From NCBI GenBank assembly GCA_012519365.1, contig JAAYQH010000229.1, positions 1 to 12,923 of the forward strand: a DNA stretch of 12,923 nt. Reading direction: 5' to 3'. Below are positions 6,117 to 12,566 of this stretch, piece after piece. Under the pieces are notes generated by a model. That model made no database searches. It saw only the letters and a list, made by a program, of their open reading frames with translations, and was not told the origin of the DNA. A program made the position numbers and the translations under genes. This DNA comes from Planctomycetota bacterium (GTDB taxonomy: Bacteria; Planctomycetota; Phycisphaerae; Sedimentisphaerales; Anaerohalosphaeraceae). How positions within the stretch are numbered: position 1 is the first letter of the stretch; the number at the start of each line of letters is the position of its first letter.

Positions 6117-6506
6117 ATGCAGTGCCCCGTGTGTCAAACGCCGATGATCGCTATCGAACTGGACGAGGTCGAGACCGATTATTGTCCGGAGTGTCAAGGA
6201 ATTTGGCTGGATGCCGGAGAACTTGAGATTTTGCTGGAAGATGCCGACCAGACACGGCGTTTGCTGGATTCCTTTCGGCCGGCTGAAACGACGGAGACAG
6301 CCCGCCTGTGTCCAATTTGCCTTAAATCGATGCAAAAAGTCTATGTTGAACCCAGTAATAAGGCCGTGCTGATCGATCGCTGCCTCAAATCCCATGGCTT
6401 ATGGTTTGATCGGGGCGAATTGATGCAGGTGCTCCAGCAGGGGGCTTTTGATGAGCAGGGCAAAGTGGCAAAACTGTTGCGCGAAATGTACCCGCCGGAA
6501 GAGTAA
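6117..6506 (+). CDS. Double zf-TFIIB zinc-ribbon protein
   Basis: The 129-residue cytoplasmic protein consists of two copies of the short zinc-ribbon fold known as the zf-TFIIB-like family. The first has Cys3/Cys6 (CPVC) and Cys23/Cys26 (CPEC) followed by GIWLDAGELE. The second has Cys65/Cys68 (CPIC), then Cys89 and His93 (CLKSH), and GLWFDRGEL. In the second copy the last ligand seems to be His instead of Cys, with spacing changed from CxxC to CxxxH. The role of the family is unknown; zinc binding is inferred from the ligands. AAGGGA (6103-6108) is a moderate ribosome-binding site for ATG 6117. The gene has its own promoter and lies 101 bases ahead of lemA with no terminator between, so one transcript could cover both. 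Confidence 0.88.
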   Translation: MQCPVCQTPMIAIELDEVETDYCPECQGIWLDAGELEILLEDADQTRRLLDSFRPAETTETARLCPICLKSMQKVYVEPSNKAVLIDRCLKSHGLWFDRGELMQVLQQGAFDEQGKVAKLLREMYPPEE

Positions 6507-6607: not shown

Positions 6608-7162
6608 ATGGTGCCTCTAATTATCGCGGTGGTCGTTGTCGTTCTATTGGTGGTGATGTTTGTCGGGATTTACAACTCCCTGGTTCGGCTGCGCAATCAG
6701 GTGGACAACGCCTGGTCGCAGATTGACGTGCAGCTCAAGCGGCGGCACGATCTGATACCTAATCTTGTCGAAACCGCCAAAGCCTATATGACCCACGAGC
6801 GGGAGACATTTGAAAAAATCACCGAGGCCCGCAGCAAAGCCTTAGGGGCAAAAAGCATTGCCGAGGCCTCCAAAGCCGAAGGGGAACTGACCGAGGCGCT
6901 GAGCAAATTTATGATGGTGGTGGAAAATTACCCCGAGCTGAAGGCAAACCAGAACTTTTTGGCTCTTCAGGAGGCGCTGACCAGCACCGAAAACAAAATT
7001 GCGTTTGCCCGGCAGAGCTACAATGATCAAGTTCTGTTCTATAACAACCAACTCCAGATGTTTCCGTCCAATATAATCGCCGGTATGTTTAATTTCACCA
7101 AACGCGATTACTTTGAGATCGAAAACGAAGCCGAACGCAGCGTGCCGCAAGTTAAATTTTAG
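6608..7162 (+). CDS. lemA: LemA family membrane protein
   Basis: The 184-residue protein starts with a hydrophobic anchor (about residues 3-20, VPLIIAVVVVVLLVVMFVGI). The family core follows: YNSLVRLRNQVDNAWSQIDV, then the RRHDLIPNLVETAKAY helix, and near the end YNNQ, MFPSNIIAGMF and FTKRDYFEIE. The soluble part is an antiparallel helical bundle facing away from the membrane. The biochemical role is not settled. Genes of this family are often next to htpX-type M48 protease genes, as here. Start ATG 6608 has a good AGGAG site (6597-6601). The gene is probably co-transcribed with the preceding zinc-ribbon gene and is separated from the protease gene by a terminator-like hairpin. Confidence 0.96.
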   Translation: MVPLIIAVVVVVLLVVMFVGIYNSLVRLRNQVDNAWSQIDVQLKRRHDLIPNLVETAKAYMTHERETFEKITEARSKALGAKSIAEASKAEGELTEALSKFMMVVENYPELKANQNFLALQEALTSTENKIAFARQSYNDQVLFYNNQLQMFPSNIIAGMFNFTKRDYFEIENEAERSVPQVKF

Positions 7163-7449
7163 GTTTTTGTTCTTGGTGTAATCAGGAGTATGAATTTTCA
7201 GTCCAATTGACTCGTTCGTGCGTTCGCATGGGTGTAAACGTCGAAAAGAATTTTTTGTAAAATGGCCAGTGCTTCCAAAGAGGCACAAGAACCCCATTAT
7301 TCGGATACAAGGTTAAAAAATAGGGATATTTTACCCGTAAAACACCCTATTTTTGTTTTGTGAAAAGAGTGTAAAGATATTGACAAGTATCGTTAAAACC
7401 GGAGCCTCTGCAGCTCCAAACTCCAATTTCAAAACTAAGAATTTACACA
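7163..7449. other. Intergenic region between lemA and the M48 protease gene
   Basis: About 287 bases. The only clear element is the hairpin at 7316-7359. A TTGACA (7380-7385) follows it but has no well-placed -10 box. The few short frames have no usable ribosome-binding site. The promoter of the protease gene could not be defined. Confidence 0.5.
7316..7359 (+). terminator. Terminator-like hairpin between lemA and the M48 protease gene
   Basis: AAAAATAGGG (7316-7325) pairs with CCCTATTTTT (7345-7354), a perfect 10-bp stem with a 19-base loop, continuing into TTTTT, G and TTTT. The A run on the other side would serve the minus strand too. The stem is AT-rich, so it may stop only part of the transcripts from lemA. 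Confidence 0.6.
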
Positions 7450-8661
7450 ATGTGGGAACAAATACGCGTCAATAAACGGAATTCGGTGATTTTGCTGGGG
7501 CTGATGGGGGCGGTGCTGTGCGGCCTTGGATTTTTGCTCGGCTTTGCCTTTGGCGGCGGCCCGGAGGCCGGGTGGGTCGGCATTTTTGTTGCCGCGTGCA
7601 TCTGGGTGGTGATGATGATGGTGAGCCTGTTCAGCGGCGATCAGATTTTGCTGGCTTCCAGCAGGGCCAAACCGGTTACCGAGGAGGTCCACCCGCAACT
7701 ATTCAATGTGGTAGAAGAGATGACCATTGCGGCCAATCTGCCGAAAATGCCGGCTGTTTACATTATCAACGACCCTGCCCCCAATGCCTTTGCGACGGGG
7801 CGCAATCCGCAGCACGCCTCGGTGGCGGTAACTGCCGGACTGTTGGCCCGACTCAATCGCGATGAATTGCAGGGCGTTATCGCTCATGAAATCAGCCACA
7901 TTCTTCATCGCGATATTTTATATGTTACGGTCGCCGGCGTGATGCTGGGAGCGGTAGTCCTGCTGAGCCAAGTATTCTTTCGGGGGATGTTTTACAGCGC
8001 TTGGGGTGGACGGCGGTATTCATCCCGTTCGCGCGAAAACGGCGGCGGTGCGCAGGTGCTGATCATGATATTGGCGATTTTCGCGGCCATTTTGGCGCCG
8101 CTGTTTGCTCAAATCCTGTATTTTAGCCTGTCGCGCAAACGCGAATACCTGGCCGATGCCGGTGCGGTGCGGCTGACCCGGTATCCGGAAGGGCTGGCCG
8201 GGGCACTGGAAAAAATCGCCGGCACAGAGCTATCGATGGAATCGGCCAACAAGGTTACGGCGCCGATGTATATCGCTAACCCCTTTCGCGGCAGAAAAGC
8301 GGTGAATTTATTCAGCACCCATCCGCCGATCGAGGAGCGGATTCGCATTTTGCGGGCGATGTCCCACGGGGCCGGCTTTAAGGATTACAATCAGGCCTTT
8401 GAACAAGTGACCCACCGTGTGGGTGTGATTCCACCCTCTGCCGTCGGGTCGGAAGATTCAATCGGCATTCGACAAGGCGCTCTGCCGACTGCCGAGGAGG
8501 CCGCAGTCAAACATCCTCAACATCAGATTGGCGATATCATCCGAAAGGTCAATGGGTTTCGATTTATCTCCTGCTCCTGTGGTCTGCGACTCAAACTGCC
8601 GCCGGATTACAATGGCAAAACCATCCGCTGCCCCCGTTGCAAACGTACGCTCAATATCTGA
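7450..8661 (+). CDS. M48 family membrane zinc protease (HtpX-like) with C-terminal zinc ribbon
   Basis: The 403-residue product is an integral inner-membrane metalloprotease expected to cut misfolded or surplus membrane proteins. Two N-terminal membrane helices (about 13-33 and 41-62) precede the catalytic domain. The zinc motif HEISH is at 146-150, with Glu147 as the general base, and the third ligand is probably Glu232 in KREYLADAGAVRL. Two more helices (about 157-178 and 201-225) separate these. STHPPIEERI (289-298) is typical of M48B. Beyond residue 310 HtpX normally ends. Here a linker of about 60 residues leads to a ribbon with Cys375, Cys377, Cys394 and Cys397 (CSC, then RCPRC), a rare addition. 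No clear Shine-Dalgarno precedes ATG 7450, which is nevertheless the start that gives the family N-terminus. It follows lemA, a common pairing. Confidence 0.94.
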   Translation: MWEQIRVNKRNSVILLGLMGAVLCGLGFLLGFAFGGGPEAGWVGIFVAACIWVVMMMVSLFSGDQILLASSRAKPVTEEVHPQLFNVVEEMTIAANLPKMPAVYIINDPAPNAFATGRNPQHASVAVTAGLLARLNRDELQGVIAHEISHILHRDILYVTVAGVMLGAVVLLSQVFFRGMFYSAWGGRRYSSRSRENGGGAQVLIMILAIFAAILAPLFAQILYFSLSRKREYLADAGAVRLTRYPEGLAGALEKIAGTELSMESANKVTAPMYIANPFRGRKAVNLFSTHPPIEERIRILRAMSHGAGFKDYNQAFEQVTHRVGVIPPSAVGSEDSIGIRQGALPTAEEAAVKHPQHQIGDIIRKVNGFRFISCSCGLRLKLPPDYNGKTIRCPRCKRTLNI

Positions 8662-8781: not shown

Positions 8782-9426
8782 TTATCGCATTACCCACTGC
8801 AGGTCAATAAATTCAAGGAAGGCTTGCTCGCGCAGCGCAGGGTCTGTCCCGACGCGGTAGTGCAATTGGAGGGTTTTTTGCATAAAGACCTTCACCGGCT
8901 GGCCGTGCTCGTCGGTTTTTGTCGGATGCTCCACCACAGCCGTTTCATTGCTTAAGCCCCCGATAAAGAAGCTCACTTCTTTGGCTTTCAGGTTAAAATC
9001 CTTCCAGATAACGACAAAATCCCGCGTGTTATCCTTGCCGCGATAGACTCGGTTGTCCGCAAAATCGAGGGACTCCAGAAAGGGGTAGCTGCCCTGATAC
9101 TGGAGCTTAATGGTCTCAAAGACACCTTTGGGAACGCCAAAACCGGCAGGGATAATCTCAAAATTATCCGTTACCAGTTCACATTTCGGGATAAACGGCA
9201 CCTCGGAATGGTCGCTTTCGTTGGTCAGCGACAAAATAAGGAACCAGAACCGTTCCGGCCCAGGCCGCCCCGGCACCTCCAGTGTGATAAGGCGAGGATG
9301 TTCATATTGGACGGTCAGCGTCCATTCATTGGGTTTTTGAACGATCGCCGGTTTGGGAAAGGCCGCATAAACGGCGGACGCAATACCGATTATTCCTATC
9401 ACTATCGCGGCAATCTGCTTGCTCAT
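8782..9426 (-). CDS. Exported or membrane-anchored protein of unknown family
   Basis: The 214-residue product starts with a short N-terminus, a hydrophobic helix (about 5-22) and a possible signal peptidase site after SAVYA. It is therefore secreted or held by one helix. The remainder is soluble and looks beta-rich: LTVQYEHPRLITLEVPG, FWFLILSLTNESD, then FVVIWKDFNLKAKEVSFFIG and GLSNETAVVEHP, ending HYRVGTDPALREQAF and QWVMR. The single Cys lies near residue 82 in IPKCELVTDNF. No catalytic motif is visible. The fold of two facing sheets is an inference from the alternation of hydrophobic residues. I have an impression of similar proteins in planctomycetes but cannot prove it. The AAGGAAA site ahead of ATG 9426 supports the start. 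The gene is convergent with the protease gene and divergent from pilT. Confidence 0.85.
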   Translation of the reverse strand: MSKQIAAIVIGIIGIASAVYAAFPKPAIVQKPNEWTLTVQYEHPRLITLEVPGRPGPERFWFLILSLTNESDHSEVPFIPKCELVTDNFEIIPAGFGVPKGVFETIKLQYQGSYPFLESLDFADNRVYRGKDNTRDFVVIWKDFNLKAKEVSFFIGGLSNETAVVEHPTKTDEHGQPVKVFMQKTLQLHYRVGTDPALREQAFLEFIDLQWVMR

Positions 9427-9699: not shown

Positions 9700-10830
9700 A
9701 TGAAAAATCAGCCTGTAGACAGCCACATTCACACAGAAACACCGCCGGAAATCGAAAAACTATTTCGCGCGGCCATCAAAGCCGATGCCAGCGACCTGCA
9801 CCTGAAGGTGGGTATCCCCCCCAAACTCCGCATTCACAGTAAGCTCAAGAGCACCACCGGCGAAGTGATGACCGAAGAACGGATCGAACAGATGGTGTTT
9901 GAGATTATGAGTCCATCCCAAAAGAATTTCTTTCTTGAACACGGGGCGCTGGACTTTGCCTACCAGATAGGCGCAACGGACCGGTTTCGAATCAATGTGT
10001 TTCGTCAGCGCAGTTACATTAGTTTGGCAGCTCGTCGCATCAGCAGTCGCATTCCTCCCTTTGAAACCCTGCACGTTCCGCCGATGGTGGAAAAAATCGC
10101 CGAAAGTCACGACGGTATGATCCTTGTCACGGGCCCGACCGGCTCGGGAAAAAGTACGACGATTGCCTCGATGATTGATCACATTAACAGCACCACCGCC
10201 GCCCATATTGTAACCATTGAAGATCCGCTTGAATTTTTGCATGTGGACAAGAAATCGATCGTTTCGCAGCGTGAAATCGGTATAGACGTGCCGAATTTTG
10301 AAGAGGCCCTGCGGAGTATGATGCGTCAGGACCCGGACGTCGTGCTGGTCGGTGAAATCCGAGACAACGAAACGCTGACCGCCGCGATGCGGGCGGCCGA
10401 AACAGGTCACCTGGTATTTGGCACCCTGCACTCGAACAACTGCGCCCAGACAATCCAGCGTGTTTTGGATATGTTCCCACAGGAAGAGCGAGACTTGGCG
10501 CGTCAGACGTTTGCCCTGACGATTCGAGCGGTCATCAGCCAGCAGCTTCTTCCCGGTATTCGGCCGGATGTGCCTCGTGTGCCGGCGGTGGAAATTATGA
10601 TTAACACGCCGATTGTCCGCAAACTGATTCGTGAAGAGCGAGAATCGGATATCCCGGCTGCGATTCGTGCCGGTGAAGGCGAGGGGATGCAGGACTTTAC
10701 CGAAAGCTTGCGGCGTCTTGTTGAGGAAGAATATATCGACCTGAAGAAGGCGCTGGAATACGCCCCGAACGTCGAAGAATTGAAGATGGCGCTGAAGGGG
10801 ATTCGTTCCGGCACCAGCGGCATTTTGTAA
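9700..10830 (+). CDS. pilT: Type IV pilus retraction ATPase PilT
   Basis: PilT is a cytoplasmic hexameric ATPase that depolymerises type IV pili, driving twitching motility or DNA uptake. The 376 residues are slightly longer than the usual 345-ish because of the N-terminus and C-terminal tail. The PAS-like N-terminal domain has SDLHLKVGIPPKLRI (31-45). The RecA-like domain contains Walker A GPTGSGKST (145-153), the Asp box TIEDPLEF (172-179), Walker B DPDVVLVGEIRD (211-222), and His-box residues His237 and His244 (TGHLVFGTLHS). The PilT/PilU signature AIRAGEGEGMQDF is at 321-333, in place of the usual GMQTF. AGGAG (9688-9692) precedes ATG 9700. A PilB-like gene follows after 95 bases with no terminator, so they probably share a transcript. 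All catalytic residues look intact, so this is an active motor. Confidence 0.95.
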   Translation: MKNQPVDSHIHTETPPEIEKLFRAAIKADASDLHLKVGIPPKLRIHSKLKSTTGEVMTEERIEQMVFEIMSPSQKNFFLEHGALDFAYQIGATDRFRINVFRQRSYISLAARRISSRIPPFETLHVPPMVEKIAESHDGMILVTGPTGSGKSTTIASMIDHINSTTAAHIVTIEDPLEFLHVDKKSIVSQREIGIDVPNFEEALRSMMRQDPDVVLVGEIRDNETLTAAMRAAETGHLVFGTLHSNNCAQTIQRVLDMFPQEERDLARQTFALTIRAVISQQLLPGIRPDVPRVPAVEIMINTPIVRKLIREERESDIPAAIRAGEGEGMQDFTESLRRLVEEEYIDLKKALEYAPNVEELKMALKGIRSGTSGIL

Positions 10831-10925: not shown

Positions 10926-12566
10926 ATGAGTAATATGCTGGCGGCAGGGTCGGAGATCGGCAACTATATCGCGGCATGGAAAGGACTGCTGATGGCGGCG
11001 GCGTTTTTTGGGTGGCTGCCGCTGGTTAATTGGGTCTATACCGACTCGCAGGCTGTGCGAACGCACAAAGAGACCTGGACGGCCGCTATTGCTACGATTG
11101 GGGCGGCGGCCTTGCTGTTGTGGATGATGATCCCTGTGTTTTTCATCGGATTTTTGCTGTATTTGCTCAGTGTAGGGGCAGCGACCGTGGCGTACATCAT
11201 CCATCGCAACGCGCGCGTCTCAGACTTTGAGCGTATCCTGACGGCGGAGCATATTCGAGGGCTTTTCATCGACGAAAACAAAAAACTCCAAAAACTCAGC
11301 CTCGGGCTTTCCTTTGTTACCTCCAATAAAAATGAAGTTCCCCTCCCCCTGCCCAAAACGCGGGAGGCAGAGGGCTTTATTATAACCTGTGAGATTCTCG
11401 ACGACGCCATATGGCGGCGGGCTGACCAGGTCATCTTCATTCCGCAAAAAGACGAATACACCGTGGTGTATGAGATCGACGGCGTCCCCATGAAGCAGCC
11501 GCCCCGCACCAAAGAGGAAATGGAGGCGTTCATTTATTATGTCAAGCAACTGGGGGGGCTGGATGTCGAAGAACGACGTAAGCCCCAGCAGGGCCGCTTC
11601 AAAGTCATCAAAGACAAAGAACTCAAGACCGAATGGCAAGTCAACACCTCCGGCTCGACTGCCGGCGAACACCTCCGGCTGGAGAGAATTTCCGACTATG
11701 TGACGCGCAAACTCGAAGACCTTGGGTTTAATGACAATCAGATCGAATCAATTCGGTCGCTTCGTGACTTGCAGGGGGGTGGGCTCATCATCATTTCAGG
11801 CCCGCCCAAAAGCGGCAAAACGACAACCCTGTACACGCTGTTGAACAACCATGATCCGTTTTTGAACAATATCGTTACTCTTGAAAAGAAGATCGCTGCT
11901 GAGTTGCCGAATATCACGCAAAATGTCTTTACGCTGTCCGATACCGGCACAACGACCTATGGGCGGCGGTTGCAGACACTGCTGCGCCGCGGACCGGACA
12001 TCATCGGAGTGGAAGAATGTGAAGAACCCGAGGCGGTGAAGCTGGCTACGGCAGCAGCGCTGGATGGGAAAATTGTGTATGTGACGATGAAGGCAATGAA
12101 TGCGGGGGAATGTGTTGATATATGGAATAAACGGCTCGGGGACAAGGGGAAAAGCGCTGATGCCCTGACCGCTGTCATTAACCAGCGCCTGGTTCGCAAA
12201 CTGTGCCCGAAGTGTCGAATCCCCTATCAGCCGAATCAAAGTCTGTTTAAGAAGTTCAATATCGACCCGATGAGCGGCGGGATGTTTTATCGGCCCGGCG
12301 ATTGTGTGTATGATAAACGCGGTAAACCCATCATCTGTGATATGTGCCAGGGGACGGGGTTCTACGGACGAACCGGACTTTTCGAATCCATCCGGATTAC
12401 CGATGAACTGCGGGAGAGCATCAAAAAGGCCAACAATACCAAAGAGTTAATTGCTGCGTTCAGAAAAGCCGGGATGCTGTACCTTCAAGAACAAGCCATT
12501 CAGAAGGTCACCCAGGGCGTCACGTCCATCAATGAAGTGATCCGAAACTTCACGACCGAAACCTGA
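10926..12566 (+). CDS. Membrane-anchored PilB/GspE-like ATPase homologue with altered catalytic motifs
   Basis: The 546-residue protein has two or three membrane helices near its N-terminus (about 18-38, 52-69, 70-92), where PilB/GspE has soluble MshEN-like domains. A second-domain remnant (about 165-270) keeps RADQVIFIP, YEIDGV and GGLDVEERRKPQQGRF. In the ATPase domain Walker A GPPKSGKTT (292-300) is intact. The Asp box is VTLEKKIA (317-324) instead of the usual VTLEDPVE. Walker B is GPDIIGVEECEE (356-367) against DPDIIMVGEIRD, so Glu364 may persist but the conserved Arg is lost. The His box reads GKIVYVTMKAMN (381-392) without its His residues. The zinc tetracysteine is complete (Cys427, Cys430, Cys471, Cys474), followed by GTGFYGRTGLFE. 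ATG 10926 has a GGGAG site eight bases ahead. It may be a weak or non-hydrolysing partner of the pilus or secretion motor. Confidence 0.88.
   Translation: MSNMLAAGSEIGNYIAAWKGLLMAAAFFGWLPLVNWVYTDSQAVRTHKETWTAAIATIGAAALLLWMMIPVFFIGFLLYLLSVGAATVAYIIHRNARVSDFERILTAEHIRGLFIDENKKLQKLSLGLSFVTSNKNEVPLPLPKTREAEGFIITCEILDDAIWRRADQVIFIPQKDEYTVVYEIDGVPMKQPPRTKEEMEAFIYYVKQLGGLDVEERRKPQQGRFKVIKDKELKTEWQVNTSGSTAGEHLRLERISDYVTRKLEDLGFNDNQIESIRSLRDLQGGGLIIISGPPKSGKTTTLYTLLNNHDPFLNNIVTLEKKIAAELPNITQNVFTLSDTGTTTYGRRLQTLLRRGPDIIGVEECEEPEAVKLATAAALDGKIVYVTMKAMNAGECVDIWNKRLGDKGKSADALTAVINQRLVRKLCPKCRIPYQPNQSLFKKFNIDPMSGGMFYRPGDCVYDKRGKPIICDMCQGTGFYGRTGLFESIRITDELRESIKKANNTKELIAAFRKAGMLYLQEQAIQKVTQGVTSINEVIRNFTTET

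Follow-up and report, generated by a model that had tools for sequence, protein, structure and literature searches.

The hexameric motors of the PilB/GspE family are read as engines. The available part of PMC5424180 describes the roles of several PilB residues, including the Mg ligand, the interface arginines, the catalytic glutamate and R455; the arginines at the R271 and R286 positions bind across the subunit interface, and R455 touches the adjacent subunit when the interface is in its apo state. R394 of EpsE is described as contacting the adjacent subunit in the accessible text of PMC5061722. In Vibrio cholerae, PilU-driven retraction requires the presence of PilT and not the PilT ATPase activity (excerpt of PMC6821130); a dead motor serving as an adaptor therefore has a precedent in the family. 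The gene analysed here lies on a stretch of 12,923 nucleotides (contig JAAYQH010000229.1, assembly GCA_012519365.1; hereafter the window) from a Planctomycetota bacterium of the class Phycisphaerae. It encodes a PilB/GspE-like protein with hydrophobic N-terminal helices and a degenerate ATP site, which suggests that a former engine might be kept as a structural part.

A preliminary description made from the sequence alone had reported this open reading frame of 546 aa, and both its extent and its motifs were recovered (Table 1): the Walker A motif, VTLEKK at the ASP box, EECEE for GEIRD, VTMKAMN at the HIS box and the four cysteines. An alternative in-frame start (GTG 10872) would add 18 residues. 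The protein has the core fold of the PilB/GspE clade, as well as all four cysteines of the zinc domain that is a trait of this clade. The T2SSE superfamily profile PF00437 matches residues 156-540 with 184.3 bits (gathering cut-off 24.9); whereas the scores for the PilB equivalog TIGR02538 (198.6 bits, curated cut-off 675.65) and the GspE equivalog TIGR02533 (196.3 bits, curated cut-off 630.25) are under the cut-offs. The N-terminal part has no domain match in Pfam at E values up to 1. The hydrophobic helices proposed for this part are present as three helices in the AlphaFold2 model (17-44, 48-68 and 72-95), and the hydropathy scan gave one segment over the threshold in the window protein and at least two in most relatives. 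Nine residues of this region (W30, P32, W36, D40, P70, G75, Y90, R94 and N95) are invariant across 28 aligned rows.

The residues of the ATP site were mapped by phmmer alignment of the window protein to PilB of Geobacter metallireducens. The Mg ligand E357 is replaced by A324, and both arginine fingers are gone (R271 to Q238, R286 to E253). In the HIS box, T411, H413 and H420 correspond to D380, K382 and K389, so that both histidines are lost. The catalytic E395 is retained as E364, and R455 as R424. The canonical set was taken as the Walker A motif, the ASP-box Mg glutamate, the catalytic glutamate, the two arginine fingers and the HIS-box histidines together; the full set is absent, and the window protein keeps only the Walker A lysine and the catalytic glutamate. 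These replacements are strong evidence that the window protein, like the rest of its family, is a pseudo-ATPase.

The family was then followed across the class. A profile from a 40-row alignment matched all 198 class genomes scanned at E 1e-40, and the listed matches begin at profile position 18 or earlier; the best match was about E 1e-117 or better in 188 genomes and weaker in 10, as read from the match table. Motif states were counted in 126 of these genomes, one locus each, which were chosen from full-length matches, so the counts are uninformative on genomes without the gene. The preliminary description had suspected a lineage-specific, membrane-anchored pseudo-ATPase, and the copies in all 126 genomes turned out to be degenerate: no locus has more than four of eight canonical catalytic residues, and 120 have two at most. 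The retained features are just as consistent, including the four cysteines (124/126), R424 (126/126), G297 (126/126) and E320 (124/126). The fetched class matches have open full-length frames. The dN/dS ratio was 0.027-0.130 in 11 of 12 pairs, with the twelfth saturated, and close values were obtained for pilT (0.016-0.127, 9 pairs); the pairs were chosen by hand, and several dS values exceed 1 and are rough. By this sequence evidence, the pseudo-ATPase and the genes next to it have been kept together, the former under strong constraint, in those class genomes that were examined.

Loci of the same phylum outside the class share the N-terminal region; their BLAST alignments to the window protein begin near its residues 9-18. 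These relatives keep GPTGAGKST, EDPVEY, GEIRD and GHMVFSTVHAND-type boxes; the relatives of one such locus are named Gimesia, Rubinisphaera, Maioricimonas and Planctomycetaceae. A FastTree phylogeny of 188 rows was reconstructed after removal of the motif columns, with SH-like support and no AU (approximately unbiased) test. The class copies and their near relatives (146 of the 188 rows) fall on one side of a single branch with support of 100. Because these rows split off at one branch, and because the non-class relatives with the same N-terminal region stay canonical, a single loss of catalysis is probable, no later than the base of the class. A degenerate copy from Thermogutta (L052, 9800-11632), which lies outside the class, has hydrophobic N-terminal segments and a long branch; it was left out of the 188-row tree and may represent a separate, independent loss. 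The preliminary description had named canonical homologues beside a single decayed copy as the case against itself. This case fails within the class, where all 126 copies examined are degenerate and the measurable pairs are constrained, and holds for the relatives outside it, which are canonical; the catalytically intact sister group had been missed.

The neighbouring genes are also conserved. The PilT protein encoded directly upstream scores 431.4 bits against TIGR01420 (cut-off 319.1) and has complete motifs, in agreement with the active PilT that had been claimed. A pilT gene was called when a protein scored above 100 in phmmer against the window PilT, within 1000 nt and on the same strand; it is directly upstream in 102 of the 126 class loci at a median distance of 40 nt. 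Among 103 rows of cassette PilT (the window's was entered twice), the lysine and EDP are kept in all 103, the Walker B glutamate in 101, and the HIS-box histidines in 100 and 101. The same loci therefore hold one catalytically constrained motor and one freed from this constraint. The pilT-less class loci (e.g. L266-L269, L271-L275 and L328-L331) belong mostly to families f105, f108 and f114, and the CvpA-like gene stays in them.

This second neighbour was overlooked in the preliminary description; its first 146 bases (48 aa) lie at the end of the window. Of the 122 class loci with enough sequence, 119 have a CvpA-like gene immediately after the pseudo-ATPase gene, the short start in the window counted as a hit; the profile used was seeded by 52 neighbour proteins, partly from the same genomes, and then widened with its own hits. 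The CvpA-like gene is thus a more constant partner than PilT. Of 20 loci of active relatives from beyond the class, 19 have the CvpA-like gene and 9 have pilT, although about 9 of these 20 had themselves contributed seeds to the profile. Five downstream proteins were scanned with PF02674 (CvpA; gathering cut-off 29.3), of which one is over the cut-off (L045, 33.4 bits) and four are under it (18.0-25.6 bits). For L121, one of the CvpA-like proteins, the predicted structure shows four long helices in the N-terminal part and a beta domain at the C-terminus.

Table 1. Coordinates of the pseudo-ATPase gene, its sequence features and its two neighbours in the window.
Feature	Position	Strand	Remark
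pilT, PilT/PilU-family ATPase, 376 aa, complete motifs, directly upstream	9700..10830	+	TIGR01420
Membrane-anchored PilB/GspE-fold pseudo-ATPase (assigned from sequence), 546 aa	10926..12566	+	ATG at 10926, stop ends 12566
N-terminal membrane-associated helices (predicted), residues 17-95	10974..11210	+	AlphaFold2 secondary structure, hydropathy
Walker A GPPKSGKTT, residues 292-300 (lysine = K298)	11799..11825	+	
Degenerate ASP box VTLEKKIA, residues 317-324; A324 replaces Mg glutamate	11874..11897	+	
EECEE, residues 363-367, where GEIRD is expected; E364 retained in window	12012..12026	+	
Degenerate HIS box, residues 380-392; lysines 382 and 389 replace two histidines	12063..12101	+	
R424, aligned with PilB R455; matches EpsE R394 by first-cysteine spacing	12195..12197	+	
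Zinc tetracysteine domain, C427/C430 ... C471/C474	12204..12347	+	
Start of CvpA-like membrane protein gene, truncated at contig end	12778..12923	+	ATG 12778

The preliminary description had also asked about a canonical PilB elsewhere in the genome. Three full-length canonical PilB/GspE proteins were found, plus partial ones at contig ends, together with five PilC/GspF-type proteins (10 half-matches), four PilT-family proteins over the cut-off and three PilM-like matches; the genome therefore has ordinary pilus or type II parts. In addition, contig C410 (L152, 9324-11561, minus strand) carries a GspE-like paralogue with canonical catalytic boxes and hydrophobic N-terminal segments, which is followed after a 3-nt gap by a 198-aa CvpA-like protein over the PF02674 cut-off (36.2 bits).

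The best explanation, with a probability of roughly 0.45, is that the protein is a retired membrane motor kept as a platform or adaptor between the neighbouring PilT and the CvpA-like protein; unlike the pseudo-ATPase status, this role is one that we infer. The ancestor would have been a membrane-anchored, catalytically active GspE/PilB-type ATPase in Planctomycetota; a CvpA-like membrane protein would already have been its partner, as would PilT in several lineages. Sequence, gene order and the tree support a subsequent loss of its catalysis, probably once, and the retention of its fold as a structural part. Most likely, the subunits would still form a ring, which would be fixed in the inner membrane through the N-terminal helices. 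Such a ring would not cycle on ATP and would offer a fixed surface (the N2 domain, the zinc domain and the conserved subunit arginine), through which the membrane-borne CvpA-like protein would be linked to the catalytically intact PilT, in a platform- or stator-like manner. It may also steer the dedicated PilT to its own site rather than to an ordinary type IV pilus. A further step, which is doubtful, would be a machine characteristic of the class, in which the target of the dedicated PilT would be, instead of PilC, a fixed ring of dead membrane-anchored GspE coupled to a CvpA-like protein that carries an additional beta domain; an ATPase would thus have turned into a stator.

Several observations weigh against the platform or adaptor role. 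The structure prediction of the pseudo-ATPase is a monomer, and no pilin or PilC gene was seen in the window. The window protein retains K298 and E364, which leaves nucleotide binding possible there. Evolution is faster in the CvpA-like gene (dN/dS 0.046-0.261, 11 pairs), although its product is the partner that is supposed to be fixed. Moreover, pilT is absent within 1000 nt upstream in 24 of the 126 class loci, where PilT might be supplied from elsewhere or might not be an obligate partner.

These 24 loci must also be accounted for by the main rival explanation, which is rather unlikely. Here the dead ATPase would serve the CvpA-like protein as its base or gate on the cytosolic side, in an envelope module for sensing or inner-membrane export, and the adjacency of pilT would be an operon relic. 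The greater constancy of the CvpA-like gene, its presence beside the active relatives and the C410 paralogue, and the helices and beta domain of the L121 model are consistent with such a module. CvpA of Escherichia coli aids deoxycholate resistance, and a role in export was proposed in the available part of PMC6705877. However, the close spacing of pilT in most loci and the conservation of its motifs are more than expected of a relic, and most of the scanned CvpA-like proteins are under the Pfam cut-off.

The preliminary description itself favoured a protein that binds but poorly hydrolyses ATP. Read as a switch, such a protein would bind ATP without hydrolysing it and would report its nucleotide state to the type II or pilus machinery. 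Of 8000 candidates scored in the protein search, 2787 passed E 0.001, and canonical ones may be among them. The best 120 of the 2787, which include the window protein, have lengths of 499-555 aa and share its degenerate forms of the ASP, Walker B and HIS boxes; residue 298 is Lys in 18 of them (again with the window's), Val in 52, Leu in 42 and Ile in 6. These lysines, together with the conserved E320 and the retained E364, might indicate ATP binding. However, Lys298 is missing in 125 of the 126 class genomes; the exception is the window protein, in which neither the Mg glutamate nor either of the arginine fingers and HIS-box histidines is left. The lysine states in the 188-row tree need 4 changes, or 13 losses when regain is forbidden; the earlier 96-row tree gave 4 changes versus 15 losses. 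The intact-looking P-loop of the window is thus most likely a secondary gain, and its lysine is therefore weak evidence for ATP binding. Because the lysine is missing in nearly all class genomes and was probably regained in the window, nucleotide binding does not seem to be a conserved property of the family. The claim of ATP binding could not be upheld, and a switch of this kind is quite unlikely.

A dead subunit in a mixed ring with an active GspE/PilB protein, such as the C410 paralogue, is decidedly unlikely. The paralogue resembles a possible partner by its canonical boxes, its hydrophobic segments and its CvpA-like neighbour, and the matches listed include near full-length relatives from 8 of 11 genomes of the same order, its own among them. 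However, the list has no such relative from G142, G388 or G057, which retain the dead protein. Among eight loci of the paralogue family, a CvpA-like gene was found in five and pilT in none (one has only 232 nt upstream), and in seven of them the match to the pseudo-ATPase profile does not start before residue 130 or so, so a common N-terminal region is unsupported there. Catalysis by a shifted active site, for example with Lys295 for Lys298, is very improbable; Lys295 in 97 of the best 120 proteins and the conserved G297 and E320 would fit continued ATP turnover, whereas position 298 (V, L, R, I, T, A, Q or M) and the other boxes vary widely across the class. Although its catalytic residues are lost, a decaying pseudogene is ruled out for practical purposes by the low dN/dS ratios, and the open full-length frames, the cysteines and the synteny are retained.

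Other genes recur around the cassette; the counts refer to loci rather than genomes, and some contigs are counted twice under two ids (e.g. L014 and L125). A 214-aa protein (window 8782-9426, minus strand) belongs to a family found near pilT in 9 loci including the window (c6). Downstream of the cassette, radical-SAM-like proteins (c3, 15 loci), Ser/Thr-kinase-like proteins with a C-terminal hydrophobic stretch (c2, 17 loci) and TetR-like regulators (c4, 11 loci) recur, for example in L012 (10942-13868) and L014 (14034-16966); these names were assigned by eye. A LemA protein and, next after it, an M48 peptidase whose C-terminal tail is rich in Cys (window 6608-8661) also have relatives near the cassette (c10, 6 loci; c7, 8 loci). 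A 129-aa protein (window 6117-6506) has two TFIIB-type zinc ribbon stretches (PF13453).

No published description of such a pseudo-ATPase was recognised in the open-licence literature, and this apparently undescribed branch of the PilB/GspE family would be a natural separation of the structural from the ATPase role. The catalytically intact sister group, with close relatives in Gimesia, Rubinisphaera and Maioricimonas, is available for comparison. The label "PilB-like ATPase", which several family members carry, can mislead. Compared with the PilB/GspE (PilF) assembly ATPases, the protein has hydrophobic N-terminal helices, has lost ATP-site residues and scores far under both equivalog cut-offs. 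The N-terminal part of the downstream protein is similar to CvpA, and the PF02674 cut-off is exceeded in L045 and C410; however, four of the five cassette copies are under it, and the modelled copy has a long C-terminal beta domain. In Acinetobacter baylyi, an extra PilB homologue (TfpB) or a motor-acting protein (CpiA) also tunes pilus extension; whereas TfpB is described as an extension motor, and CpiA as without homology to known proteins, in the available text of PMC8213720. The PilT/PilU pair likewise combines a PilT-family motor with a partner that need not hydrolyse ATP, as far as described in the excerpt of PMC6821130; however, the dead partner here is PilB/GspE-like and membrane-anchored, and evolution has made it dead throughout the examined genomes of the class.
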